64,000 nt of DNA from Streptomyces sp. CMB-StM0423. GTDB lineage: Bacteria > Actinomycetota > Actinomycetes > Streptomycetales > Streptomycetaceae. Where the stretch lies: the NCBI RefSeq assembly GCF_002847285.1, contig NZ_CP025407.1, positions 5,335,001 through 5,399,000 of the forward strand, given 5' to 3'. This document shows, one piece after another, positions 20,188 to 34,647 of the stretch (the first letter of the stretch is position 1; every line of letters begins with the position of its first letter). The notes beneath the pieces were generated by a model, which worked only from the letters and a program-made list of their open reading frames with translations, did no database searches and was not told the origin of the DNA. Position numbers and translations under genes: made by a program.

Positions 20188-20725
20188 CGCGCCCCGGGCG
20201 GCCCGTCCGGCACCGGGCTCCACCCCTCGCTCGTACGCGCCGATGGTGACGTTCGCCACCCCGCGGCACACCGGACCCAACAGGGCCATACGGAAGGCTT
20301 TAGTCCAGGTGAAGGACGTTCCGCAGGCTGGAGAAGCTGTGCGAATCGTCAAAGAACAGGGGCTGCGTTTGTACACATTCGGCCGTGGACGGCGACTGGC
20401 CCCTAGGGGATAGCCTGGTGGGCGTGATCAGCCCGATATCTCATGGGGGCGACGGAGGCGGGGCCCGCGGGGCCACCACCGCGCCCCTCCCGGCGTCGGT
20501 CGGCGCCGGGGACCCCGACCGGGGGACGGCTGATCGGCGAAACCGGTGCCGCCGCCCGATGATGGCCGGAAGCGGACCGATGAGTTTCCCGTTCCGGCAC
20601 GATGCCGCGCAGGGCCCGGAGGCATCCGGGCCGCGGTGCCGTGCCCGCTCGTCAGCAAGGGCCGGGGAACACTCCCGGCCCACAAGAACCGTCACGCAAC
20701 GGCGCGCGACAGGAGCCTGAGGACC
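20188..20725 (+). promoter_or_regulatory. Upstream region of NAD-glutamate dehydrogenase gene
   Basis: This is 538 bp between the HAD gene and the dehydrogenase gene. The part from about 20280 to 20415 has lower GC than its surroundings and contains the doubtful small ORF. A GTG frame from 20403 to 20720 ends 5 bp before the dehydrogenase start but lacks normal codon bias, so I do not call it a gene. The promoter must lie here; CTAGGGGATAGCCTGG around 20404 is the most promoter-like segment but no clear -35 accompanies it. Confidence 0.4.
20243..20413 (+). CDS. Possible small protein with a TTA codon (uncertain)
   Basis: An ATG-initiated frame of 56 codons, ending TAG at 20411-20413, encodes a basic peptide that includes IRKALVQVKDVPQAG and GLRLYTFGRGRRLAP. 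Codon 20 (20300-20302) is TTA, the rare leucine codon read by the bldA tRNA in Streptomyces. About one third of third positions are A or T, unlike the neighbouring genes, and no ribosome-binding site precedes the ATG. It may be a small bldA-dependent gene, an imported fragment, or non-coding sequence in the leader of the glutamate dehydrogenase gene. Confidence 0.3.
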   Translation: MVTFATPRHTGPNRAIRKALVQVKDVPQAGEAVRIVKEQGLRLYTFGRGRRLAPRG

Positions 20726-23700
20726 ATGCAGATCAAGCTGGCTGAAGCCAAGAACGAGCTGCTCGCGCGCGCGGCGCGGGTGGACGGGACGGGTGAGGGG
20801 GGATTGCCTCCCGAGACCCTCGACGCGTACCTCCAGCGCTATTACCTGCATACCGCGCCCGAGGATCTGCTCGGCCGTGACCCGGTCGACGTCTTCGGCG
20901 CCGCGCTCTCCCACTACCGCCTGGCCCAGAACCGCCCGCAGGGCACCGCCAACGTGCGCGTGCACACGCCCACGGTCGAGGAGAACGGCTGGACGTCCAG
21001 CCACAGTGTCGTCGAAGTAGTAATGGACGATATGCCGTTTTTGGTGGACTCCGTCACCAATGAGCTGTCTCGCCAGGGGCGCGGCATTCATCTGGTGATC
21101 CACCCGCAGATCGTCGTCCGCCGGGACGTCACCGGCAAGCTGCTGGAGGTCCTGGACGCCGGCCGCGACCCGAACGCCTCGCCGCCCTACGCCCGCGGCC
21201 TCGAAGACCTGCCGCACGACGCCGTGATCGAGTCCTGGATCCACGTCGAGATCGACCGCGAGTCCGACCGCGCGGACCTCAAGCAGATCACCGCCGACCT
21301 GATGCGGGTGCTGTCCGACGCCCGCGAGGCCGTCGAGGACTGGCAGAAGATGCGCGACTCCGCCCTGCGCATCGCCGACGACCTCGACGAGGAGCCGCTG
21401 CCGGACGACATGCCCACGCAGGAGGTCGAGGAGGCCAGGGAGCTGCTGCGCTGGCTCGCCGCCGACCACTTCACCTTCCTGGGCTACCGGGAGTACCGCC
21501 TGACGGTCAACAGCGACGGCGAGGAGCTGACCGCCGTCCCCGGCACCGGCCTCGGCATTCTGCGCGCCGACCCGTCGCACGCCGCGTTCGCCAAGGACGA
21601 CGGCAAGCCGCAGCCCGCCTCCGAGTCCTTCCACCGGCTGCCCGCCGACGTCCGCGCCAAGGCCCGCGAGCACCGCATGCTGGTGCTCACCAAGGCCAAC
21701 AGCCGCGCCACCGTGCACCGCCCGGCCTACCTCGACTACGTCGGCGTGAAGAAGTTCGACGCCGACGGCAACGTCGTCGGCGAGCGGCGCTTCCTCGGCC
21801 TGTTCTCCTCCGCCGCGTACACCGAGTCCGTACGCCGCGTGCCCGTCGTCCGCCGCAAGGTCGCCGAGGTCCTCAGCCGGGCCGGCTTCACGCCCAACAG
21901 CCACGACGGCCGCGACCTGCTGCAGATCCTGGAGACGTACCCGCGCGACGAGCTGTTCCAGATCCCCGTCGCGGAGCTGCAGTCCATCGTCATCAGCGTG
22001 CTGTACCTGCAGGAGCGCCGCCGGCTGCGGCTGTTCCTCCGGCAGGAGGAGTACGGGCGCTACTATTCGGCGCTCGTCTACCTGCCGCGCGACCGCTACA
22101 CCACCTCGGTGCGGCTGCGGCTCGTCGACATCCTCAAGGAGGAGCTGGGCGGCACCTCCGTCGACTTCACCGCCTGGAACACCGAGTCGGTCCTGTCCCG
22201 GCTGCACTTCGTCGTCCGCGTCGACCCCGGCACCGGGCTGCGCGAGCTGACCGAGACCGACGTCCACCGCATCGAGAACCGCCTCGCGGACGCCTCCCGC
22301 TCCTGGAACGACGGCTTCACCGAGGCGCTGGTCGCCGAGTTCGGCGAGGAGCGCGCCGCCGAGTTGGGGCACCGTTACGCCGGCGCCTTCCCCGAGGGCT
22401 ACAAGGAGGACTTCGCGCCCCGCGCCGCCGTCTCCGACCTCCAGCACTTCGAGAAGCTCAGTTCGCGGGGCGGCACCGCCAAGTTCGCCCTCAGCCTCTA
22501 CGAGCCGGTGGGCGCCGCGCCCAACGAGCGCCGGCTGAAGGTGTACGGGGCGGGCGCGCCCTTCTCGCTGACCCGCGTGCTGCCCGTGCTGCACAACCTC
22601 GGCGTCGAGGTCACCGAGGAGCGGCCGTACGTGCTGCGCTGCGGCGGCGTCACCGACGCGTGGGTCTCGGACTTCGGGCTGCTGTTCCCGCCGTCGCAGA
22701 ACGGCGGCGGCCTGGAGGTCGGCGAGGACGCGCGCGAGCGCTTCCAGGAGACGTTCGTCGCGGTGTGGAACGGCGAGGCGGAGGACGACGGGCTCAACTC
22801 CCTCGTGCCCGTCGCCGGGCTGACGTGGCGGCAGGCGATGGTGCTGCGCGCGTACGCCCGCTATCTGCGCCAGGCCGGCTCGAAGTTCAGCCCGGCGTAC
22901 ATGGAGGACACCCTCCGTACCAACGTGCACACCACCCGGCTGCTGGTGACCCTCTTCGAGGCGCGCATGGCGCCGGAGCGGCAGCACGCCGGGCGGGAGC
23001 TGACGGACGGCATCCTGGAGGAGCTGAACGGCGCGCTGGACCAGGTGGCCTCGCTCGACGAGGACCGCATCCTGCGCTCGTTCCTCACCGCCATCCAGGC
23101 CACGCTGCGGACCAACTACTTCCAGCACGACGGCGACGGGAAGTCCTGGCACTCGTACCTGTCGCTGAAGCTCGACCCGCAGGCCATCCCCGGACTGCCA
23201 GAGCCGCGCCCGGAGTACGAGATCTGGGTGTACTCACCGCGTGTCGAGGGCGTGCACCTGCGCTTCGGCAAGGTCGCGCGCGGCGGGCTGCGCTGGTCCG
23301 ACCGGCGCGAGGACTTCCGCACCGAGGTCCTGGGCCTGGTGAAGGCGCAGGAGGTGAAGAACACCGTCATCGTCCCGGCCGGCGCCAAGGGCGGCTTCGT
23401 CGGCAAGCGGCTGCCGGACCCGTCGGCGGACCGGGACGCCTGGCTGGCCGAAGGCATCGCCTGCTACAAGACGTTCATCTACGGCATGCTCGACATCACC
23501 GACAACCTCGTCGGCGGCGAGGTCGTGCACCCCAAGAACGTCGTCCGGCACGACGAGGACGACACGTACCTGGTCGTCGCCGCCGACAAGGGCACCGCGA
23601 CCTTCTCCGACATTGCCAACGAGGTCGCCGTCTCGTACGACTTCTGGCTCGGCGACGCGTTCGCCTCCGGCGGCTCCGCGGGCTACGACCACAAGGGCAT

Positions 23701-25720
23701 GGGCATCACCGCCCGCGGCGCCTGGGAGTCGGTCAAGCGGCACTTCCGCGAGCTGGGCGTGGACTGCCAGACGGAGGACTTCACCGCCGTCGGCATCGGC
23801 GACATGTCGGGTGACGTCTTCGGCAACGGGATGCTGCTCAGCGAGCACACCCGGCTGATTGCCGCGTTCGACCACCGGCACATCATCGTCGACCCCGACC
23901 CGGACCCGGCCGTCTCCTACGCCGAGCGCCGCCGGCTCTTCGAGCTGCCGCGCTCGTCCTGGGAGGACTACGACAGCCGCAAGCTCTCCGAGGGCGGCGG
24001 GGTGTTCTCCCGCAAGGCCAAGGCGATCCCGGTGAACGCGAAGATGCGCCGGGCACTCGGCATCCGCGACGGCGCCGCGAAGATGACGCCCGCCGAGCTG
24101 ATGAAGGCGATCCTCCAGGCGCCGGTCGACCTGCTGTGGAACGGCGGCATCGGTACGTACGTGAAGTCCTCGGCGGAGGCGCAGGCCGACGCGGGCGACC
24201 GGGCGAACGACGCGATCCGGGTGGACGGCATCGACGTACGGGCGCGGATCGTCGGCGAGGGCGGCAACCTCGGGCTGACGCAGCTCGGCCGGATCGAGTT
24301 CGCGCGGTTCGGCGGCCCCGGCGGCAAGGGCGGCAAGATCAACACCGACGCGATCGACAACAGCGCGGGTGTGGACACGTCCGACCACGAAGTGAACATC
24401 AAGATCCTGCTCAACCAGGTCATCGGCGACGGCGACATGACCGTCAAGCAGCGCAACAAGCTGCTGGGGGAGATGACCGACGAGGTCGCCGCGCTGGTGC
24501 TGCGCAACAACTACGCGCAGAACACCGCCCTGGCCAACGCCGTCGCGCAGGCCCCCAGCCTGCTCCAGGCCCACCACCGGTACATGCGCAAGCTCAGCAA
24601 GGAGGGCGCGCTCGACCGGGACCTGGAGTTCCTGCCCGGCGAGAAGCAGGTGCGCGAGCGCCTCACCGCGGGCCTGGGCCTCACCCAGCCCGAGCTGGCG
24701 GTGCTGCTGGGCTACACGAAGATCACCACGGCGGAGGACCTGGTCGCCACCGTGCTGCCGGACGACCCGTATCTGGAGCGGCTGCTGTTCGCGTACTTCC
24801 CGCAGCCGCTGCGCGAGCGCTTCCCCGACCAGATCCGCGCGCACGCGCTGCGCCGCGAGATCGTCACCACCGTGCTGGTCAACGACACGGTCAACACCGG
24901 CGGTACGACGTTCGTGCACCGGCTGAAGGAGGAGACCGGCGCGTCGACCGAGGAGATCGTACGGGCGCACACCGCGGCCCGCGCGATCTTCCACCTCGGC
25001 GACTTCTGGGACGAGGTCGAGACCCTCGACAACGTCATCGCCGCCGACATCCAGACCCGTATCCGGCTGCACTCGCGCCGGCTGGTCGAGCGCGCCACCC
25101 GCTGGCTGCTCAACAACCGGCCGCAGCCGCTGCAACTCGGCGAGACGATCGACTTCTTCAGCGAGCGCATCGGGCAGGTCTGGGCGGCGCTGCCGAAGCT
25201 GCTGCGCGGCACGGACCTGGAGTGGTACGAGCGCAACCAGAACGAGCTGACCGACAACGGCGTCCCGGCCGAGCTGGCGCAGCGGGTGGCCACGTTCTCG
25301 GCGGCGTTCCCGGCGATGGACATCGTGGCCGTCGCCGACCGCACCGGGCACGAGCCGCTGGACGTCGCGGAGGTGTACTACGACCTCGGTGACCGGCTGC
25401 ACATCAGCAACCTGATGGACCGCATCGTCGAACTCCCGCGGGCAGACAGGTGGCAGTCCATGGCCCGCGCGGCGATCCGCGAGGACCTGTACGCGGCGCA
25501 CGCGTTGCTCACCGCCGCGGTGCTGTCCGCGGAGCCGGAGGCGGAGGGCGAGGCGATCACGCCGGAGCTGCGGTTCAAGACCTGGGAGGCGAAGAACACC
25601 GCGATCCTCGGGCGGGCGCGCAGCACGCTGGAGGAGATCCAGGGGTCGGAGTCGTTCGACCTGGCGAACCTGTCGGTGGCGATGCGGACGATGCGCACGC
25701 TGCTGCGGACGAACCGGTAG
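20726..25720 (+). CDS. NAD-specific glutamate dehydrogenase, 180-kDa class
   Basis: 1664 residues, ATG at 20726, with GAGG about 4-7 nt upstream. It belongs to the very large (L-180) NAD-dependent glutamate dehydrogenases first characterised in Streptomyces clavuligerus, which convert glutamate to 2-oxoglutarate and ammonium, mainly in catabolism. The long N-terminal regulatory half contains DDMPFLVDSVTNELSRQGR and LLRWLAADHFTFLGYREY. The catalytic core is in the second half: FGKVARGGLRWSDRREDFR, VIVPAGAKGGFVGKRLP with the active-site Lys, DMSGDVFGNGMLLSE and LLWNGGIGTYVKSS. The length matches the family. It is cytoplasmic and probably monocistronic, as the next gene has its own spacing of 66 bp. 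A long antisense frame across it is a GC artefact. Confidence 0.96.
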   Translation: MQIKLAEAKNELLARAARVDGTGEGGLPPETLDAYLQRYYLHTAPEDLLGRDPVDVFGAALSHYRLAQNRPQGTANVRVHTPTVEENGWTSSHSVVEVVMDDMPFLVDSVTNELSRQGRGIHLVIHPQIVVRRDVTGKLLEVLDAGRDPNASPPYARGLEDLPHDAVIESWIHVEIDRESDRADLKQITADLMRVLSDAREAVEDWQKMRDSALRIADDLDEEPLPDDMPTQEVEEARELLRWLAADHFTFLGYREYRLTVNSDGEELTAVPGTGLGILRADPSHAAFAKDDGKPQPASESFHRLPADVRAKAREHRMLVLTKANSRATVHRPAYLDYVGVKKFDADGNVVGERRFLGLFSSAAYTESVRRVPVVRRKVAEVLSRAGFTPNSHDGRDLLQILETYPRDELFQIPVAELQSIVISVLYLQERRRLRLFLRQEEYGRYYSALVYLPRDRYTTSVRLRLVDILKEELGGTSVDFTAWNTESVLSRLHFVVRVDPGTGLRELTETDVHRIENRLADASRSWNDGFTEALVAEFGEERAAELGHRYAGAFPEGYKEDFAPRAAVSDLQHFEKLSSRGGTAKFALSLYEPVGAAPNERRLKVYGAGAPFSLTRVLPVLHNLGVEVTEERPYVLRCGGVTDAWVSDFGLLFPPSQNGGGLEVGEDARERFQETFVAVWNGEAEDDGLNSLVPVAGLTWRQAMVLRAYARYLRQAGSKFSPAYMEDTLRTNVHTTRLLVTLFEARMAPERQHAGRELTDGILEELNGALDQVASLDEDRILRSFLTAIQATLRTNYFQHDGDGKSWHSYLSLKLDPQAIPGLPEPRPEYEIWVYSPRVEGVHLRFGKVARGGLRWSDRREDFRTEVLGLVKAQEVKNTVIVPAGAKGGFVGKRLPDPSADRDAWLAEGIACYKTFIYGMLDITDNLVGGEVVHPKNVVRHDEDDTYLVVAADKGTATFSDIANEVAVSYDFWLGDAFASGGSAGYDHKGMGITARGAWESVKRHFRELGVDCQTEDFTAVGIGDMSGDVFGNGMLLSEHTRLIAAFDHRHIIVDPDPDPAVSYAERRRLFELPRSSWEDYDSRKLSEGGGVFSRKAKAIPVNAKMRRALGIRDGAAKMTPAELMKAILQAPVDLLWNGGIGTYVKSSAEAQADAGDRANDAIRVDGIDVRARIVGEGGNLGLTQLGRIEFARFGGPGGKGGKINTDAIDNSAGVDTSDHEVNIKILLNQVIGDGDMTVKQRNKLLGEMTDEVAALVLRNNYAQNTALANAVAQAPSLLQAHHRYMRKLSKEGALDRDLEFLPGEKQVRERLTAGLGLTQPELAVLLGYTKITTAEDLVATVLPDDPYLERLLFAYFPQPLRERFPDQIRAHALRREIVTTVLVNDTVNTGGTTFVHRLKEETGASTEEIVRAHTAARAIFHLGDFWDEVETLDNVIAADIQTRIRLHSRRLVERATRWLLNNRPQPLQLGETIDFFSERIGQVWAALPKLLRGTDLEWYERNQNELTDNGVPAELAQRVATFSAAFPAMDIVAVADRTGHEPLDVAEVYYDLGDRLHISNLMDRIVELPRADRWQSMARAAIREDLYAAHALLTAAVLSAEPEAEGEAITPELRFKTWEAKNTAILGRARSTLEEIQGSESFDLANLSVAMRTMRTLLRTNR

Positions 25721-25786
25721 GAGGAGGGCGGCGGCGCGGGGCGTTGCTCGAAGTCCGGGGCGGGCGAATGACGTAGTTTGTCCCGC

Positions 25787-27346
25787 ATGGGGCAGACAGC
25801 CACGGACCAGCGACCGCCGCGCGTCGGCCCCGGCACGGCGTCCGTCGTCGCCGCGTACCGCCGCGCGCTTCCCCGCGCCGTCCGCCGCCACCTCGCCGTC
25901 CTCACCGCGCCGCACCACGCCGACCGGCTCCGCGCCGCGATCAGGGCCCGCCGCGAGCAGGCCGCCACCGAGGCCCCCGGCCACGTCGTCATCACCGTCG
26001 ACGGCCGGCCGCGCATCGCGCATCTGCAGCGCACGCTCTCCCCGGTGCAGGCCCGCCGCGTCGGGGTGCTCAAGGTCACCCGGGCGCTGCGGAACGCCGG
26101 CGTCCCGCACTTCGCGGTACGGGGCCGGGCGTGCGGCCCCTCGGTCGTCGCCGTGCCCGCGGACCAGCGCCGCCGGGCGTGCCGGGCGCTGGCCCGGCTG
26201 TGCCGGGTGCAGCCGGCGTACGTGACGGTGGTGGCGGGCGAGGGTGCGGGCGCGGGGTCTGGTGCGGGGCACGGGGCCGGTCTGGCGGGGGGCGGCGCGG
26301 CCGGTGCGTACCCGCGCCTCGTGCCCGGCTACGAGCCGGGCGTCTGGCAGCAGTTGGAGAAAGCCGACGTGCTGCGCCTCACCTGGTACCGCACCGAGCC
26401 CGGCCTGCGGCTCGTCATCGGCGCCGACTCCGGCTGCGAGGTGGAGTTCTGGCACGAGGACGCCACCGGCGACCGGCTGCTCGCGCCCCGCCCCGGCCGC
26501 GTCGCCGACAGCGTCCCGGCCGGTGCCACCGCCGTGAAGATGACCGACCGCGGCTCCTGGGGCTGCGGCCGGCTCACGCTGCGTACCCGCGAGGAGTTCG
26601 CGCACCCGCTGCCCGAGGACGTCACGTACGCGATCGATGCGGTGTTCACCTGGACCGACCCCGAACTGCGCTACGCGCTGCGCTCCCTCGCCACCTACGC
26701 GCCCTGGCTCCGCCGCATCTACCTGCTCACCGACGACGGCGAGCCGTCGTGGCTGGACACCGCGCACCCGGGGCTGAAGGTCGTCGGGCACCGCGAGGTC
26801 TTCGCCGACCCGACCGTGCTGCCGACGTCCAACCCGCGCGCCGTCGAGAGCCAACTGCACCACATCGAGGGCCTGGCCGAGCACTTCCTGTACTTCGGCG
26901 ACCGCCTCTTCCTGGGCACCGAGACCGTCCCCGAGCAGTTCTTCCTCGCCAACGGCCTCACGCGGTTCTTCGTCTCGCCCGTACAGGAGCCGCTGCGGCA
27001 CGCCCCGCACCCGCTGCGGCGCAGCGTGCTGTGCGAGATCGAGCGCGAGTTCGGCGACCGGCACGTGGCGACCGCCGCCCACCGCGACCCGCGCCGCGAC
27101 GACCTCGCGATCCCGTCGTCGCTGTACCGCCACTACGCCGCCCACACCGGCCGCGCGGCGGCCGCGACGCTGCGCTACGCGGACGTCGACCTGGCGGCAC
27201 CCGGCGCGGACGCCGTGCTGCGGGGGCTGCTTGCGGCGCGGAACCGGACGGTGATCCGGGCCAGGGGCACGGGGGCGCCGGGGCTGCTGGGGGCGTTCCT
27301 GGAGGCGTACTTCCCGGTGCCGAGCGCGTACGAGCTGCCGGGGTGA
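25787..27346 (+). CDS. Stealth-type protein lacking catalytic signature
   Basis: 519 residues, ATG at 25787. It is paralogous to the Stealth protein at 30126-32075: both share an N-terminal domain with HFAVRG and a core with YAPW, WLDTAHP, ESQLHHI and LAEHFLYF. Stealth proteins transfer sugar-1-phosphate units to build capsule or wall polymers. Here the first conserved region is cut short (IDAVFTWT at 283-290 runs straight into PELRYALRS, about 32 residues missing). The catalytic NDDVFLG motif reads GDRLFLG (371-373), and about 30 residues before the third conserved region are also gone. The frame is otherwise intact with normal codon usage. It may be a pseudoenzyme with a regulatory or structural role, or an early stage of decay. 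Confidence 0.8.
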   Translation: MGQTATDQRPPRVGPGTASVVAAYRRALPRAVRRHLAVLTAPHHADRLRAAIRARREQAATEAPGHVVITVDGRPRIAHLQRTLSPVQARRVGVLKVTRALRNAGVPHFAVRGRACGPSVVAVPADQRRRACRALARLCRVQPAYVTVVAGEGAGAGSGAGHGAGLAGGGAAGAYPRLVPGYEPGVWQQLEKADVLRLTWYRTEPGLRLVIGADSGCEVEFWHEDATGDRLLAPRPGRVADSVPAGATAVKMTDRGSWGCGRLTLRTREEFAHPLPEDVTYAIDAVFTWTDPELRYALRSLATYAPWLRRIYLLTDDGEPSWLDTAHPGLKVVGHREVFADPTVLPTSNPRAVESQLHHIEGLAEHFLYFGDRLFLGTETVPEQFFLANGLTRFFVSPVQEPLRHAPHPLRRSVLCEIEREFGDRHVATAAHRDPRRDDLAIPSSLYRHYAAHTGRAAAATLRYADVDLAAPGADAVLRGLLAARNRTVIRARGTGAPGLLGAFLEAYFPVPSAYELPG

Positions 27347-27519
27347 GGGCGGCGGCCGGCCGGCTGGACGCCGAGCACCTGACGGTGCTGGACGGGCGGA
27401 CGCCGAACGTGTGCGTGCGGCTGCCGGCGGACGGGGCGGGACGGTCGGGGCCGTGGCTGCGGGTGGGGGGCCGGGCGCTGCCGCTGGAGGTGGCGCGCGC
27501 GAGCGTGCCGCCGCGCTGA
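27343..27519 (+). CDS. Short hypothetical protein coupled to Stealth-like gene
   Basis: 58 codons starting at a GTG that overlaps the TGA of the preceding gene (GTGA), so translational coupling is possible. The peptide includes GRLDAEHLTVLDGRTPNVC and PWLRVGGRALPLEVARA. It has high G/C at third positions, as expected for coding DNA. I do not recognise it; it could be the C-terminal scrap of a larger glycosyltransferase-like protein or a genuine small partner. Confidence 0.4.
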   Translation: MRAAAGRLDAEHLTVLDGRTPNVCVRLPADGAGRSGPWLRVGGRALPLEVARASVPPR

Positions 27520-27578
27520 CGCGGGCGGTGGCCCGTCGCGTACGAACCGCGCGCCCCGACCCGGTGCGTACGGCAGCG

Positions 27579-29126
27579 CTACGGGACCGGGGCACCCGCC
27601 GTGCCGCGGGGCGCCGGGGCCCTGGTGGACGTCCGGGGCCGCGGTGCACCCGCCGGGCCCGGGCGGCGGCCGGACACCGCCGCGGAGAGCGGCAACTGCT
27701 CGTGCAGGCCCGCGCACAGCAGGGCCACGGGCGCGAGCGCCAGCAGACCGTAGAGCAGCGCGGGACCCGGGTCCGCCGCCGCCGAACCGGCCAGCGCCGC
27801 CAGCGCCCCGGCCGCCGCCCCGATGCCGCCGTGCACCGCGTGCGCCCGCAGCACCTCCCGTACCCGCACCAGCCCGCACCGCCCCCACCGCACCAACTGC
27901 AGCGCGTGCCCCGCGGCAGGACCGGCGGCCGCCGCGCAGGCCAGCAGCGGCAGGGCCGAGCCCGAGCCGCGCCACGGGAGGACGAGGGCGAGGGCGGCGG
28001 CGGTGACGAGGAGCACGACCAGGTGCGTACCGAAGAGTTCGCGGCGGCGGCCGCGGGCGAGGTCGAGGGAGCAGCCCGCGGAGTAGACCAGTTGCAGCGC
28101 CGCCGCGGCACAGATCCACGGCACGAGCGCCGTCGCGGACTCCCAGCCGGGCCCGAGGAGCAGCGCGAGCGCGGCGGGCCCGGCCCCCGCGGCGGCGCCG
28201 AACCCGGCGAAGCCGGCGGCGGAGGCGGCGGTGACGGCGAGGCGCGCGGTGGGCACGTCTACGCGGCGTACGGGACGGGACGGCGGGTGAAGATCGGCCT
28301 CCCGGCGCCCGCCCGGCGCCCGGTTCGCCACCCGGCCGTACACCGTCACCGGCACCTCGCACAGCACCCAGGCGCGCGAGTACACGCCCGCCGCGCCCGG
28401 ACCCAGCAGCCCGCAGACCGCCCACAGCGGCGCGCCCGCGGCGACCAGCCGCAGCAGCCCGAACCCGGCCGCGAACCGGGAGACGCGGATCAGCGAGGCG
28501 GCCTGCACCGGAGGGCCGTCCGGCAGCGGCGTACGGGACAGGAGCAGCGCCGCGGCGCCGAGGGTGACCGCCGCCGAGACCGGCAGCACGGCGGCCAGGC
28601 CGAGGGGGTTGACGCCCCCGGCGAGCAGCAGGATGCCGGTTGCGGCACCGGCCGCCTGGCTGCCGGCGTCCGTCAGTACGGCGGCGCGGGGGCGGCCGGC
28701 GCGGCGGAGCGCGGTGAGCGCGGCTTCGGCGGCGGGCCGGCAGAGGAAGGCGCAGGCGAGGAGGCGGAGGAGGGGGGTGGTATCGGGGGTGTGCAGGAGC
28801 AGCGCGGGCAGTGGGGCGGCGAGTTGGGCGACGGCGAAGCCGGTGAGCCCGGTGATCGCGGCGAGCCGGAGTGCGGCGTGGGCGGTGGGCCGGGCCGGCG
28901 GCCCCGGGCGGCGCAGGGAGTCGGCGATGCCGCTGCCGGCGAGGTGGGCGAGGAGGTGGACGGCGGTGAGGGCCACGGCGTACGCGCCGAGGGCGGCGGG
29001 GGAGACGTGGCGGGCGGCGTAGGCGACGCAGCAGAGCTGGAGCAGCAGCCCGAAGGCGGCACCCCCCAACCGCCAGCCGCCCGCGGCGTCTTCCGCGTGG
29101 ACCGTACGGGTCGCGTCCCCGCTCAC
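27579..29126 (-). CDS. Polysaccharide flippase (Wzx/MOP-like membrane protein)
   Basis: 515 residues from a GTG at 29126 that overlaps the stop of the upstream FkbM gene by 4 bp (GTGA), indicating translational coupling. The protein is highly hydrophobic, with about 12-14 predicted membrane helices; examples are GAAFGLLLQLCCVAYAA, GAYAVALTAVHLLAHLAG and LLGPGAAGVYSRAWVLCEV. The overall layout fits MOP-superfamily exporters that flip lipid-linked saccharides across the membrane. Being last in a run of envelope-polymer genes supports this. It ends in a Pro/Arg-rich tail. The exact substrate is unknown. Confidence 0.72.
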   Translation of the reverse strand: MSGDATRTVHAEDAAGGWRLGGAAFGLLLQLCCVAYAARHVSPAALGAYAVALTAVHLLAHLAGSGIADSLRRPGPPARPTAHAALRLAAITGLTGFAVAQLAAPLPALLLHTPDTTPLLRLLACAFLCRPAAEAALTALRRAGRPRAAVLTDAGSQAAGAATGILLLAGGVNPLGLAAVLPVSAAVTLGAAALLLSRTPLPDGPPVQAASLIRVSRFAAGFGLLRLVAAGAPLWAVCGLLGPGAAGVYSRAWVLCEVPVTVYGRVANRAPGGRREADLHPPSRPVRRVDVPTARLAVTAASAAGFAGFGAAAGAGPAALALLLGPGWESATALVPWICAAAALQLVYSAGCSLDLARGRRRELFGTHLVVLLVTAAALALVLPWRGSGSALPLLACAAAAGPAAGHALQLVRWGRCGLVRVREVLRAHAVHGGIGAAAGALAALAGSAAADPGPALLYGLLALAPVALLCAGLHEQLPLSAAVSGRRPGPAGAPRPRTSTRAPAPRGTAGAPVP

Positions 29127-30118
29127 CGTCCCACCGCCTGCCGCCACATCCGCGGCAGCCGCGCCTCCAGCCCCCGCCGCGGCCCGGGCGGCGCCCCCGG
29201 CGCACCGTGCGGCGCGTTCCACCCCCGCGGGAACGGCTCGCCAGGCGGCACCAGCACATTCTCCTCCTTGCCGCACGCCAGCACCGCCCGCAGCCACGTG
29301 CGCTGCGCCGCGTAGAACTCGTCCGTCAGCGGCTCGGGCGCGAACAGCCAGTCGCGGCACTGCCCCTGGACGTGCGGCGCGTAGCTCTTCGCGTCGTGCG
29401 CGCGCCACGGCGTCTCCGGATGGATGAGGTGCAGTCCGTACCCCAGCTCCGTCAGGTGCGACAGCGCCGCGCCCATCGCCGCCGCGTCCGTGCCCGGCAG
29501 GACCTCGCAGACGATCCACGGGCGGTGCTCGCGCAGCACTCCGGCCGCGCCCGCGAGGACTTCGGGCTCGTGCGTCTCGACGTCGATCTTGATGAGGTAC
29601 GGCGCGTGCCCGTGCCGCTCCGCGAAGCCGTCGACCGTGCCGACCGGCACCCGCACCGACTCCGTGTGCGCGCGGTGCGCGGCGTTGAGGGAGTTGGAGC
29701 TCTCGGCCTTCAGCGACAGGAACAGCTCCGCCGTGCGGCTGCGGTCCGACAGCGCCATCTGCCGCACGTCGAAGCCCAGTCCGTTGCCGTCGCGCAGACC
29801 ACGGCACAGCTCCGCCGTGCGCGGGGTCGGCTCGAAGGCGACGGTCTGCAGCCGCTTGGCGCCGTGGACGAGGTCGACGAGGGCCGCGTACAGCCCGATG
29901 TGCGCGCCGATGTCGTACACGGCCGCGTGCGGGGGCGCGTACTGCGCGACGGTCAGCAGCGTCGCCTGCGTCAGCGGCTCGTACCCCGCGAGGCCCGCGC
30001 GGCGCAGTTGGCGCTGGACCGCGGTCTCCTTGCGGCTGAGCACGTTCAGCGCGCGGGGGTACGCGCCGGTGCCGGGCGGCGCGGCCGGGTTCACCGGGGT
30101 GCGGACGGCCAGGGGCAT
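29123..30118 (-). CDS. FkbM family methyltransferase
   Basis: 331 residues, ATG at 30118 preceded by GGAGAGGTGA, 7 bp after the stop of the upstream Stealth gene. The SAM-binding motif is VYDIGAHIGLYAALV, followed by VAFEPTPRTAEL and the family-typical LIKIDVETHEPEVLAGA. FkbM enzymes O-methylate sugars or other hydroxyl groups. In this setting the likely target is a sugar of the surface glycopolymer. It is cytoplasmic. The C-terminal 60 residues are Pro/Gly-rich and poorly defined. Confidence 0.85.
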   Translation of the reverse strand: MPLAVRTPVNPAAPPGTGAYPRALNVLSRKETAVQRQLRRAGLAGYEPLTQATLLTVAQYAPPHAAVYDIGAHIGLYAALVDLVHGAKRLQTVAFEPTPRTAELCRGLRDGNGLGFDVRQMALSDRSRTAELFLSLKAESSNSLNAAHRAHTESVRVPVGTVDGFAERHGHAPYLIKIDVETHEPEVLAGAAGVLREHRPWIVCEVLPGTDAAAMGAALSHLTELGYGLHLIHPETPWRAHDAKSYAPHVQGQCRDWLFAPEPLTDEFYAAQRTWLRAVLACGKEENVLVPPGEPFPRGWNAPHGAPGAPPGPRRGLEARLPRMWRQAVGR

Positions 30119-30125
30119 GACCTGC

Positions 30126-32075
30126 TCACCTCTCCAACGGGCTCGGGCCGGGGCCCGAGCGCGTGAACGGGATCTCGAACGGGCTGGGGTCGGGGAAGTA
30201 CGCGTCGAGGAAGGGGCGGACCAGCTCCACCTGCCGGTCCAGGTCGCCCGCGCCGGAGAGCGTGTCGTTGAGGCAGAAGACGTTCCGGTCGCGGCGGCGC
30301 AGCAGCCGCTGGAGGCGGGCGGCGAGGTCCGGGTGGGCGAGGTCGAAGTAGTCGTACGGGATCTGCCCGGGCACCGCGCGGCCGGTGAACGCCGCGTAGT
30401 AGTGGTGGAACGCGGACGGGATGCTCAGGTCCGTCGCGCTGCGGAAGCGGCTCGCCGCGGTCTGCCGGTGCCGTTCGGGGAAGCGCTCCTCGATCTCGGC
30501 GAGGGTGCTGCGCCGCAGGGCGTGCGGCGTGTGCTTCATCTTCTGCGTGATGTACGTGCCGAACCTCTGCTGGAGCAGCGCCCTGTTGTTCTTTCCCGCG
30601 ACCGACACCGGCACGTCGCCCGCGTCCGGCGGCCCGGAGGGCAGCAGCGCGCGGGAGGGGAAGTAGCGGGTGATGCCGCCGGGGAGGAAGAACCGGTCGG
30701 GCAGCAGCGGGGCGCCGAGGAAGACGTCGTCGTTGAAGTAGAGGAAGTGTTCCGCCAGGCCGTCGATGTGGTGCAACTGGCTCTCGATGGCGTGCGAGTT
30801 GAACGTCGGCAGGACGCCGGGGTCGGTGAAGATGTCGCGGTGGTCGACGACCGTGAGGTGGGGGTGGGCGGTGTCGAGCCAGTCGGGGGCCTGGTCGTCG
30901 GTGACGAGGTAGACGTGCCGGATCCAGGGGGCGTACAGATGCAGTGAACGGAGCGAGTAGCGCAGCTCGTCGCGGTTGAGGTAGCGGGCGTCGTTCGCGG
31001 CCTCGGCGTGGTACGGGACGCCGCCCGCGGCGGCGCGGCGGCGGCGCCAGGCGGGGTCGTCCCCGTCGACCCAGGTGTAGACGGCGTCGACGGGGAAGGG
31101 GAGGTCGTCGGGGAGCGGGACCGTCATCTCGGGGCGGGTGCGGACGTCGGGGACGGTGCCGAGGGAGCCGGGGAGCACGAAGCGGGTGAAGAGGTGCCCG
31201 GGCGCGGTGACATGGGTGCCGTCGTGCGGTACGGACTCGACGACGCGGTTGAAGCGCGGCGCCACCAGCCGGCTGCCGCCCGGCGCCCGGTCGCCGGGAT
31301 CGCTCTCCTCGTACGGTTCCTCCGCCCAGAACTCCACGTCGCAGCCGTAGCCGGCGCCGAGCAGGGTGTGCCCGCCGCGATCGGCGTAGTAGCAGGCGAA
31401 CCGGACGACGGCCGCCCCGGCGAGCGCGTCCCACGCGGCGGGGTCCCCGGCGGGACGCACCCGGCGCTCGGGGCGCTTGCGGCGGTCGGGGAGGCAGACG
31501 TAGCCGGGGTGCGCGGCGCACAGGGCGGTGAGCGCGGCGACGGCGCGGGCGCGGGCGGGGGCTGGGACGGCGACGGCGGTGGAGACGCTGCCGTAGCCGC
31601 GGACGGCGAAGTGCTCGACGCCGGCGGCGTCGAGGGCGCCGGTGACCAGGCGCAGGTTCTCGTTGCGGGCGTGCAGCGGCGTGGGGGAGCCGACCACGAC
31701 GGCGAGCCGGGTCTGGCCGCGGTAGTGGACGACCCGGCGGTCGGGACGGCCGAGTTGGCCGGTGGCGCGCAGGGCGCGCAGCACCGAGCGCTGCCCCGGC
31801 TCGGGGACCCGCCGGGAGACGGCGCCGAGCGCGCGCTCCACCCGGTGCCGGGCGGCGGGGCCGGCGACGGCGACGACGAGCCGGCGCACGCGCCGCGGCA
31901 CCGCGCGCCGGTAGCGGGCCACGAGCCACGGCTGCCCGGGCTTCGCGCCGTTGGCGTCCGTGGCGTAGGCGGGGTAGGGGCCGTTCCGCGCGGGACCGGG
32001 GCGGGGGCGGCCGACTCCGGTGGCGGGGGGCGCCGTCGGCGGGGCGGCGGGTCGCTCGCTGCGGGTCTGTGTCAT
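30126..32075 (-). CDS. Stealth family sugar-phosphate transferase
   Basis: 649 residues from the ATG at 32075, which has GGAGGT 6 nt upstream. All four conserved regions appear intact. Region 1 is DAVYTWVDGDDPAW (about 330-343). Region 2 runs from ELRYSLRSLHLYAPW to the catalytic NDDVFLG (448-454). Region 3 includes GKNNRALLQQRFG and RRSTLAEIEERFP, and region 4 is the C-terminal RNVFCLNDT. Stealth proteins are hexose- or hexosamine-1-phosphate transferases making phosphodiester-linked polysaccharides. The first 60 residues are Pro/Ala-rich. It heads a tight three-gene run with FkbM and the flippase. Confidence 0.9.
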   Translation of the reverse strand: MTQTRSERPAAPPTAPPATGVGRPRPGPARNGPYPAYATDANGAKPGQPWLVARYRRAVPRRVRRLVVAVAGPAARHRVERALGAVSRRVPEPGQRSVLRALRATGQLGRPDRRVVHYRGQTRLAVVVGSPTPLHARNENLRLVTGALDAAGVEHFAVRGYGSVSTAVAVPAPARARAVAALTALCAAHPGYVCLPDRRKRPERRVRPAGDPAAWDALAGAAVVRFACYYADRGGHTLLGAGYGCDVEFWAEEPYEESDPGDRAPGGSRLVAPRFNRVVESVPHDGTHVTAPGHLFTRFVLPGSLGTVPDVRTRPEMTVPLPDDLPFPVDAVYTWVDGDDPAWRRRRAAAGGVPYHAEAANDARYLNRDELRYSLRSLHLYAPWIRHVYLVTDDQAPDWLDTAHPHLTVVDHRDIFTDPGVLPTFNSHAIESQLHHIDGLAEHFLYFNDDVFLGAPLLPDRFFLPGGITRYFPSRALLPSGPPDAGDVPVSVAGKNNRALLQQRFGTYITQKMKHTPHALRRSTLAEIEERFPERHRQTAASRFRSATDLSIPSAFHHYYAAFTGRAVPGQIPYDYFDLAHPDLAARLQRLLRRRDRNVFCLNDTLSGAGDLDRQVELVRPFLDAYFPDPSPFEIPFTRSGPGPSPLER

Positions 32076-32241: not shown

Positions 32242-34536
32242 TCATTCGCTGCGCACCACCGCACTCCCCGCCGGCCGCGGCAGCACCCCCGGAACGCCCC
32301 GCGCCACACCCCCGGGCCCCGGCACCGGCGGGCGCCCCGCCTCGCCCAGGAACACGTGCCGCACCACGCGCTCCGCGGCGTGCCCGTCGTCGTAAGGGCA
32401 GAACCGCCGCCGGAACGCCGCGAGCTGCGCCGCGGCGGCGGGGGCGGCGTGGGCGCCGGTGGCGAAGGCGTCGGCGATCTCGCCGGCGGTGCGGCAGACG
32501 CGGCCGGGCGGCTCCGCGGTGAGGTCGAAGTACGTGCCGCGCGCGAGCCGGTACGCCTCCCAGTCGGCGGCGTGGATCACGATGGGGCGGCCGAGCAGGG
32601 CGTAGTCGAACATCACGGACGAGTAGTCCGTGAGCAGCGCGTCGGAGGCCAGGCACAGCTCGGTGAGCGAGGGGTGCGCGGTGACGTCGAGGACGCCGGC
32701 GGGCGGGGCGCCGGCGGGCGCGGCGTCGTGGAAGTAGTGCGCGCGGGCCAGCAGCACGACGTGCGCGCCGCGTTCGCGCAGCGCGCGGGCGAGGGCGCCG
32801 AGGTCGAGCGCGGGGACGTGGCCGGGCAGGTAGTCGCGGTGGGTGGGGGCGTAGAGGACGGCGGTGGCGCCCTCGGGGATGCCGAGCCGGGCGCGCAACC
32901 CGGCACGCGCGGAGGGCGCGAGGGGCGGCCCGGCGAGGGCGTCGTTGCGCGGGTAGCCGTACTCCAGGGTGGTGTGCTCGGCCGGGTAGGCGCGGCTCCA
33001 GGCCAGGGTGGAGTGGCGGTTGGCGGAGAGGCTGTAGTCCCAGCGGTCGACGCGGGTCATGAGCGCGGCGAAGTCCATGCCCGCCGCGCCCGCGGGATGG
33101 TCGGCGAGGTCCAGGCCCATCTTCTTCAGCGGGGTGCCGTGGTGGGTCTGCACGTGGATCTGGCCGCGGCGCTTCACCACGTCCTGCGGGAAGTTGACGT
33201 TGTTGACGAGGTACGTGGCGCGCGCCAGGGCGCGGTGGCAGGCGCGCGAGCCGGGGCGCAGCACCCGTACGCCCGGCGGCACGGTGTGCGCGTACGCGGG
33301 GCGGGCGATCCAGGCGGTGGCGAGTCCCGGGACCAGCTCGCGGGCCCTGGCTTCGAGGGCGGCGGGGTTGCAGGAGTAGCCCCGGTACCAGTACGCGGCG
33401 AAGACCGCCAGGTGCGGGTCGAGGGGCAGGCGGAGCTGGAGGCGGTAGTAGAGCAGGCCGCAGCCGGCACGGGCGCGCCGGACGGCGCGGGCGGCGAGGT
33501 CGCGGGTACGGGAGAGGAGCCGGCCGGTGGCGCCGAGCAGTTGGAAGGCGCGCCGGGTGCCGAGCCGCACGAGGAGATGCCGCGTCCGGGCCCGTACCCC
33601 GTGCCCGGCCCGTACCGCACCGCCGGCGTCACCCCGGGCCCGTACGCCGTCCTCCGCACCCGCAGCAGCCCCATACCGCACGTACAGCGCCCGCGCCCGC
33701 CGGAAGAACTCCGCCCGCTTGTGCCGCGGCACCCGCTCGCCCTTGTTGAAGATCGTCGTCAGATGGTCCACCATCCGCACGAACAGCACCGGCCGCCACC
33801 GCTCCAGCCGCCGCGCGGCGAGGAACGCGAACACCCGGTCGTACTGCTCGAAGACGTCGAGGTGCTGCTCCCCCGGCGTGCCGAGGATGTTGCCGGACCG
33901 CCGCTGCCGGTAGTGCACGCACACCCGGTCCAGCACCGCGATCCGCTCGGCCGACAGCAGCGCGGGGTACGTCCACGGGGTGTCCTCGTAGTAGCCGGGC
34001 GGGAAGCTGAGGCCCTGCGCGGCGACGAAGTCCCGCCGGTACGCCTTGTTCCACACCACCATCAGCAGCCGCAGCAGCTCCGGCCGCTCCGCCAGCCGGA
34101 AGACCTGCGGGTCGCGCTCGGCGAGCAGGTCGGCGCGGACGTTGCGGGCGTGCCGGCCGTCCCAGTAGGCGCGCGCGTAGTCGTAGACGAGGACGTCGGG
34201 GGCGGCGGTGGCGGCGAGCCGGTCGGCGATGGCCTGGAGCGCGCCGGGGACGAGGGTGTCGTCGCCGTCGAGAAAGAGGACGTAGTCGCCGGTGGCGCGC
34301 TCCAGTCCGGCGTTGCGGGCGCGGCCGAGGCCGACGTTGGCGCTCAGGTGGACGGCGGTCAGCCGCGGGTCGCGGGCCGCCGCGGCGTCGATGATCTCGC
34401 CGCAGAAATCGGGGGAGCGGTCGTCGACCGCGATGACCTCCACGTCTGTGAAGGACTGCGTGAGCACGGACTCCAGGCACTCGTCGAGATATGCCTGGAC
34501 CCTGTACGCGGGGACGATGACGCTGAACCGGGGCAC
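32242..34536 (-). CDS. Bifunctional GT2 glycosyltransferase / CDP-glycerol glycerophosphotransferase (TagF-like)
   Basis: 764 residues from a GTG at 34536, with AGGGA 7 nt upstream. The N-terminal domain (1-230) is a GT-A family 2 transferase: FSVIVPAYRVQAYLDECL, EVIAVDDRSPD and the DxD motif in LFLDGDDTLV. The C-terminal domain (about 400-740) resembles TagF/TagB polymerases of teichoic acid synthesis: QTHHGTPLKKMGLDL, AVLYAPTHRDY and LLTDYSSVMFDYALLGRPIV. It likely builds a poly(alditol phosphate)-type or related wall polymer at the cytoplasmic membrane face. It lies upstream of the Stealth-FkbM-flippase run in the same direction. A GTG at 34542 is an alternative start. Confidence 0.88.
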   Translation of the reverse strand: MPRFSVIVPAYRVQAYLDECLESVLTQSFTDVEVIAVDDRSPDFCGEIIDAAAARDPRLTAVHLSANVGLGRARNAGLERATGDYVLFLDGDDTLVPGALQAIADRLAATAAPDVLVYDYARAYWDGRHARNVRADLLAERDPQVFRLAERPELLRLLMVVWNKAYRRDFVAAQGLSFPPGYYEDTPWTYPALLSAERIAVLDRVCVHYRQRRSGNILGTPGEQHLDVFEQYDRVFAFLAARRLERWRPVLFVRMVDHLTTIFNKGERVPRHKRAEFFRRARALYVRYGAAAGAEDGVRARGDAGGAVRAGHGVRARTRHLLVRLGTRRAFQLLGATGRLLSRTRDLAARAVRRARAGCGLLYYRLQLRLPLDPHLAVFAAYWYRGYSCNPAALEARARELVPGLATAWIARPAYAHTVPPGVRVLRPGSRACHRALARATYLVNNVNFPQDVVKRRGQIHVQTHHGTPLKKMGLDLADHPAGAAGMDFAALMTRVDRWDYSLSANRHSTLAWSRAYPAEHTTLEYGYPRNDALAGPPLAPSARAGLRARLGIPEGATAVLYAPTHRDYLPGHVPALDLGALARALRERGAHVVLLARAHYFHDAAPAGAPPAGVLDVTAHPSLTELCLASDALLTDYSSVMFDYALLGRPIVIHAADWEAYRLARGTYFDLTAEPPGRVCRTAGEIADAFATGAHAAPAAAAQLAAFRRRFCPYDDGHAAERVVRHVFLGEAGRPPVPGPGGVARGVPGVLPRPAGSAVVRSE

Positions 34537-34647
34537 GGACACATCCCTGGGCGGGCGGCGGCGGAAGGACAGTCCGCTGGTCGGAATGTCCTTATTTCTG
34601 GTATCCGCCACCGTAACGGCGGCCCCACGCACTCAGCCGTACGACAG

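Follow-up and report, generated by a model that had tools for sequence, protein, structure and literature searches.

Gene content and catalytic residues

In the window, the 64,000-nucleotide stretch of Streptomyces sp. CMB-StM0423 DNA analysed here, an open frame on the plus strand (25787..27346) encodes a 519-aa protein annotated as a Stealth pseudoenzyme, with an N-terminal domain (residues ca. 15–280) and a degenerate Stealth domain (residues 281–519). A NAD-glutamate dehydrogenase gene (20546..25720, plus strand) is located upstream, and a remnant of ca. 150 bases of a gene designated gene X (27343..27495, plus strand) follows. The minus strand then carries genes for a polysaccharide flippase-like protein (27579..29126; Polysacc_synt_3, 36.3 bits; start uncertain), an FkbM-type methyltransferase (29123..30118), an intact Stealth phosphotransferase (30126..32075) having CR1–CR4 and the NDD, KNNR, FRS, and CLND motifs, and a teichoic-acid-type fusion of glycosyltransferase 2 (GT2) and CDP-glycerol:polyglycerophosphate phosphotransferase (32242..34632), whose NCBIfam TarF match is under the cut-off. 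Beyond the GT2 fusion are genes of ABC transporters, encoding permeases and a solute-binding protein. Stealth enzymes include the human mucolipidosis II enzyme and bacterial capsule and wall-polymer synthases, and the gene content appears to fit a teichoic-acid-like wall polymer. The sequence-only reading, which had spoken of a phosphopolymer locus, was fair in this respect, given the CDP-glycerol phosphotransferase domain and the flippase-like gene. The degenerate gene (plus strand) and the active Stealth gene (minus strand) face each other and share no operon.

The same reading had regarded the 519-aa protein as a Stealth paralogue of the protein at 30126-32075; this was borne out, with coordinates exact from the likely ATG and the paralogue on the minus strand. 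Pfam searches with the 519-aa protein gave Stealth_CR2 (4.2e-33, 114 bits; cut-off 39.4) and CR3 (3.8e-10, 40 bits; cut-off 24.2), Stealth_CR4 at 20.3 bits, under the cut-off of 27.4, and no Stealth_CR1 at E ≤ 1; CR1 of the S. aculeolatus orthologue reached 11.9 bits against a cut-off of 27.2. The full CR1–CR4 set found by Pfam in the intact paralogue is not present in the 519-aa protein. In the alignment, one residue lies between TW[VT]D and ELRY, compared with 32 in the intact paralogue. The missing 32-residue stretch, announced by the sequence-only reading as a loss from region 1, comprises the second part of CR1, the spacer S1, and the first CR2 residues. At the resulting junction, IDAVFTWTDP (26633..26662, plus strand), the R322 equivalent of active Stealths is also absent; when residues are counted backwards from the NDD of the human protein in a printed alignment, R322 falls inside the deleted segment. 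In CpsY of Mycobacterium tuberculosis, deletion of S1 abolishes activity, as do R419K and R419Q, and E305A, N322A, and D324A lower activity 200- to 500-fold (PMC10668966).

The remaining positions were read from the same alignment, all on the plus strand. NPRAVES stands for NSHAIES (26831..26851), which keeps the equivalent of CpsY E305 (Glu354). FGDRLFLG stands for FNDDVFLG (26894..26917), so that N322 is replaced with G and the metal-binding D324 with R (CpsY numbering). RHAPHPLRRS (26996..27025) keeps the general-base His (His405, equivalent to human H956), and ca. 33 residues before CR3, including the preceding KNNR helix, are gone. DPRRDD stands for FRSATD (27086..27103), with P at the position of CpsY R419 and human R986, and TVIRARG stands for the CR4 stretch NVFCLND (27248..27268), with R at the human N1151 position. 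The alignment thus confirmed GDR for the catalytic NDD and the missing segment ahead of region 3, both noticed from the sequence alone, and added two losses, FRS to DPR in CR3 and CLND to RARG in CR4. PMC11418123 gives R322, D408, H956, R986, and N1151 as the five key residues of human GNPTAB; four of these are lost in the 519-aa protein (R322 deleted, D408 to R, R986 to P, and N1151 to R) and H956 is kept. Codon usage had been called normal, and the GC contents at the three codon positions of 25787-27346 (0.78/0.56/0.96) are indeed similar to those of neighbouring genes. The 519-aa protein is a Stealth by descent; most of the tested features of an active Stealth phosphotransferase are missing from it, and we infer that it is unable to transfer sugar phosphate.

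Orthologues and selection

Four other full-length orthologues were obtained, from G207 (94% identity), G128 (90%), S. aculeolatus (86%), and Streptomyces sp. CNH099 (78%), the values for the latter two being those of the best segments. In S. phytophilus, only the first 57 residues of the 519-aa protein were matched, at a contig end. The gene was present in three of the 199 genomes of the genus sample, the window's own counted, and in the window's own genome alone in the 197-genome order sample. All four other orthologues are without the NDD and the region-1/S1 segment, and the frame, already described as open by the sequence-only reading, is open in all five. S1 is deleted in 5/5. The NDD position holds GDR in four of the five and GDH in CNH099, the CR3 Arg column holds P in all five with an Arg two positions later, and the column of the CR4 Asn (human N1151) holds R in four and G in one. 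His405 and Glu354 are kept in 5/5. The D373 position is basic throughout (R, R, R, R, and H), and H351R and C491R occur in every orthologue. The nearest Stealth ORFs were aligned (58 rows, after two out-of-frame ORFs were dropped), and the NDD was kept in 49/49 rows outside the degenerate groups; these 49 rows are nearest matches, not a random pick. Because four other full-length orthologues bear the same changes and the other 49 Stealth rows keep the NDD, chance is excluded. A sequencing or assembly artefact is likewise of negligible probability, since the genome is a single contig and the same losses occur in other assemblies.

To estimate selection, we used a one-ratio codon model with F3x4 frequencies in our own script. 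With third positions at 96% GC, Nei–Gojobori ratios (0.30–0.54 for the window family) were set aside in favour of this model; those for the intact paralogue and T3 had also taken in out-of-frame sequence upstream and were left unused. The five taxa of the 25787-27346 family gave an omega of 0.134 (LRT against 1 = 294). The comparison of dN/dS across relatives proposed in the sequence-only reading therefore indicates purifying selection. By part, the five-taxon omega was 0.119 for the N-terminal domain and 0.159 for the Stealth half (LRT 110), and removal of CNH099 gave four-taxon values of 0.117 and 0.111, respectively. For the intact paralogue, omega was 0.126 in the N-terminal part (four taxa) and 0.038 (four taxa) or 0.047 (five taxa) in the Stealth part; the intact-type Stealth of CNH099 has a frame break and was therefore omitted from the N-terminal estimate. 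Compared with the active paralogue, the Stealth half is thus roughly threefold less constrained yet far from neutral, and the N-terminal halves are about equally constrained. Branch omegas were 0.122 for the window, 0.197 for CNH099, and 0.115 for the rest (three-ratio LRT 4.8, 2 df), and placing the window and CNH099 under one ratio against the rest gave an LRT of 4.1 (1 df). Relaxation is mild on the CNH099 branch and absent on the window branch (0.122 versus 0.115).

Frame controls gave omegas of 1.2–5.4 in frames +1 and +2. Low values (0.10–0.26) were also obtained in the antisense frame rc1, whose wobble position is the same, so the strand is not fixed by omega alone; it is fixed by homology. 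Third-position changes exceeded those at first and second positions in every pair compared. An antisense frame of 1625 aa (23234-28111, minus strand) spans the glutamate dehydrogenase and degenerate Stealth genes; such a frame is expected from GC-rich wobble positions and has no support as a gene.

In S. aculeolatus, the degenerate gene is followed by gene X, a second degenerate Stealth gene (T3), and a GT4 gene, over ca. 3.9 kb (L033 10781-14648). Gene X encodes 352 aa there and has no Pfam match. X and T3 are also found in G207 and G128, and neither was matched in CNH099, whose left edge differs. As the outgroup, CNH099 may have lost X and T3 or never had them. In the window, the remainder of X, T3, and the GT4 gene are absent; since the window's sister G207 retains X and T3, this loss is the window's own. 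Separately, the intact-type Stealth of CNH099 (L034 13483-18020, minus strand) is split over two frames just ahead of CR1 in a draft contig.

These losses bear on whether the gene is a slow pseudogene, in decay since its role passed to another intact Stealth. The missing X, T3, and GT4 genes, the weaker constraint compared with the active paralogue, the slight relaxation of CNH099, and the frame break in its intact-type Stealth would agree with decay. However, omega is 0.11–0.13, stops and frameshifts are absent in five species, third-position changes dominate every pair, and the window branch is not relaxed. We therefore consider a slow pseudogene very unlikely. The sequence-only reading had reserved simple decay for the case of orthologues with an intact NDD and region 1 together with relaxed selection here; with the losses shared by 4/4 orthologues and an omega of 0.134, isolated decay is rejected. 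The same two results support its description of the gene as a maintained pseudoenzyme, of which inactivity itself is the inferred part.

We further compared sites of the Stealth half among the five orthologues. Of the sites that are conserved in active enzymes and have been retained, 63/68 were invariant, compared with 93/149 of the unconserved sites (Fisher p = 1.4e-6). Replaced sites were invariant in 13/20 cases, no different from unconserved ones (p = 1.0). In the N-terminal domain, 19 of the 22 conserved sites are kept in all five. With the scaffold sites frozen and the replaced sites changing at the background rate, it is the fold that is selected, not the old chemistry: selection protects the scaffold, with no detectable protection of the former active site.

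Predicted fold, origin, and further degenerate Stealths

An AlphaFold2 model of the 519-aa protein, built from a 38-row alignment (mean pLDDT 83.4, pTM 0.80), was compared with known structures using Foldseek and VIA-align. In this predicted model, the Stealth half superposes on CpsY (8j2n) with Z 33.4 and an rmsd of 1.3 Å over 230 residues at 41% identity (VIA-align), and reaches Z 27–29 against animal GNPTAB-type enzymes. The model thus indicates that the 519-aa protein retains the Stealth GT-A-like fold. With CpsY (PDB 8J2N) and GNPTAB (7SJ2 and 9BGF), the protein has in common the predicted fold, CR2, CR3, the end of CR4, and the general-base His; unlike them, it is without S1, the NDD, the CR3 Arg, CLND, and the KNNR helix, and carries the Streptomyces type-A N-terminal domain. 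It shares this domain with intact type-A Stealths (L036, L074, L037, and the window's 30126-32075), and the aligned type-A rows, unlike the 519-aa protein, keep NDD, FR, and CLND-type motifs. The N-terminal domain had no Pfam match at E ≤ 10, and no NCBIfam match was obtained at E ≤ 0.1 for the whole proteins P0001, P0002, and P0006. This domain (25787-26626, plus strand), common to Streptomyces type-A Stealths and without a Pfam family, has an order of helices and strands that recalls nucleotidyltransferase folds, as an impression only.

After Stealth enzymes, the best structural match was 4ayl (Z 13.3), titled a metal-independent glycosyltransferase. It would suit a remodelled enzyme, in which the metal-dependent reaction is lost, basic residues replace the metal, and another, metal-independent transfer or hydrolysis takes place in the GT-A pocket. 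With R or H at the metal-Asp position and an Arg two residues past the lost CR3 Arg in 5/5, such activity is conceivable, and the retention of His405 and Glu354 and the uniform H351R and C491R changes point the same way. However, Z values of 10–13 were reached by many other GT-A folds in the same match list, several features of active Stealths have been lost (S1 including the R322 equivalent, the Asn of CR4, and the Arg of CR3), and invariance at the replaced sites is no higher than at unconserved ones. We regard a remodelled enzyme as unlikely. The idea that a conserved pocket lined by arginines signals new chemistry was rejected, since conservation of the replaced sites does not exceed background.

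We inferred a tree under a mixture model with a quick search (48 rows, 472 columns), after thinning out 19 intact rows and taking six of the seven P0006-family sequences then known (G205 was left out). The five orthologues form one clade within the intact type-A Stealths (SH-aLRT 97, with L036, L074, L037, L070, and L083), and FastTree gives the same placement (support 0.969). Because the clade is nested in intact type-A Stealths, the loss of catalytic residues is derived. The window's intact Stealth sits elsewhere in the mixture-model tree; this placement indicates that the degenerate gene arose from an active type-A ancestor and is no recent copy of its present neighbour.

T3, located at L033 11632-13290 (plus strand), L068 7456-9702 (minus strand), and L069 6788-8734 (plus strand), groups with type-B GT4+Stealth fusions in the mixture-model tree. 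T3 is without S1, has ADD at the NDD position in 3/3 rows, and its CR3 is not matched by Pfam. Its omega of 0.165 shows that T3 is under constraint too. To the eye, the N-terminal part of T3 resembles half a GT4 domain; a Pfam search for GT4 was negative. From its sequence, both catalytic parts of T3 may be dead. One dead ancestor for T3 and the 519-aa family, despite near-identical S1 junctions, was rejected by the AU test (p = 0.0078) on an alignment in which the T3 rows occupy 44–46% of columns. As judged from these alignments, T3 appears to be a dead Stealth derived independently of the 519-aa family.

P0006 (544 aa in G033), a third family of degenerate Stealths, was found at L040 8408-10042 (minus strand), L084-L090, and L100-L104. 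It occurred in 7/199 genomes of the genus sample and 8/197 of the order sample (14 distinct genomes, G195 being in both; 63–100% identical to P0006), and all members from the 197-genome order sample belong to the genus. P0006 was also matched in G346 (34%, residues 14-535). We checked the flanks of 12 of the 14 loci, leaving out G277 and G243; in 12/12 the NDD position holds RPG, and an NDD-bearing Stealth gene lies on both sides of the degenerate gene. Like the 519-aa protein, the P0006 family has lost S1, the NDD, the CR3 Arg, and CLND, keeps the fold in its model (pLDDT 79.3; CpsY matched at E 1.1e-17), and is under purifying selection. It differs in having RPG for NDD, a pre-CR3 stretch that is present but altered, and a location between active Stealth genes. 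A single dead clade of P0006 and the 519-aa family was not rejected by the AU test (p = 0.38).

In four P0006 pairs with dS < 2, omega was 0.036–0.080 for the N-terminal part and 0.082–0.090 for the Stealth part. The flanking genes, with Stealth-part omegas of 0.025–0.052, show the opposite tilt between the two parts. A similar tilt in the five-taxon estimate of the 519-aa family, along with the kept N-terminal sites, would be expected if the function resided in the N-terminal domain and the Stealth half were a tolerated structural remnant. The difference between the halves of the 519-aa family depends on CNH099 and vanishes without it, which weakens this explanation. Moreover, the Stealth half is itself clearly constrained, with frozen scaffold sites, and none of the five orthologues has lost it or shows a frame break. 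A function confined to the N-terminal domain is therefore rather improbable.

Possible roles of degenerate Stealths

The observations establish that catalytic residues are lost, that the same losses recur in 5/5 full-length orthologues, that selection is purifying, that the position in the tree is derived, and that the predicted fold is kept. We lean towards the reading that 25787-27346 encodes a maintained pseudoenzyme that serves an active Stealth, either as a scaffold without catalysis or as a regulatory partner. In this reading, selection would have kept the N-terminal domain and GT-A-like scaffold of a type-A Stealth sugar-1-phosphate transferase while its sugar-nucleotide and metal site was dismantled. 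The surface that remains and the N-terminal domain could bind either the active Stealth encoded by the opposing operon or the growing phosphopolymer. The dead Stealth might determine which acceptor is used, how long a teichoic-acid-like wall polymer becomes, or where it is placed. The location of P0006 between two intact NDD Stealths in every locus checked favours a partner role for dead Stealths. On the other hand, the weaker constraint on the Stealth half, the relaxation in CNH099, and the lack of a shared operon with the active Stealth count against the partner reading, and the retention of His405 and the E305 equivalent in 5/5 counts against a pure scaffold, which needs neither.

The idea of a polymerase aided by a silent homologous subunit has a likeness in EXT1-EXT2, paired active and inactive glycosyltransferases with active and silent domains; the EXT1-EXT2 entry 7uqy was among the structural matches of the 519-aa model. 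The two differ in family and chemistry, and a Stealth complex at the present locus is hypothetical. In the characterised Stealths GNPTAB and CpsY, the Stealth chain is of a single kind. Human GNPTAB is a dimer in an α2β2γ2 complex whose γ subunit comes from a separate gene, and CpsY variants behaved as monomers (PMC10668966). A literature search, mostly of papers outside subscription, found no Stealth pseudoenzyme or dead Stealth. A maintained dead paralogue, together with a family placed between two active ones, would mean a non-catalytic homologous subunit in some Stealth systems. As a tentative extension, which we hold to be possible and somewhat doubtful, Streptomyces may have made Stealths into non-catalytic subunits at least twice, perhaps three times, and may build wall polymers with mixed complexes of active and dead Stealths; the genomic traces of such complexes would be gene triplets of the order active-dead-active and, in the window, a dead Stealth opposite an active one. 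If so, bacterial phosphopolymer machinery would include a structural pseudo-polymerase. Of Streptomyces wall biogenesis, PMC11481543 says that 'we know very little', and dead Stealths would offer a testable handle on polymer length, acceptor choice, and localisation in these walls.

In the plasmid collection, 46 records matched, all below 60% identity. On a plasmid of Streptomyces sp. NBC_01643 (L099 7839-10069, plus strand), a Stealth gene that is missing from the PLSDB gene table is broken over frames, and IS630 genes lie ca. 3–5 kb off.
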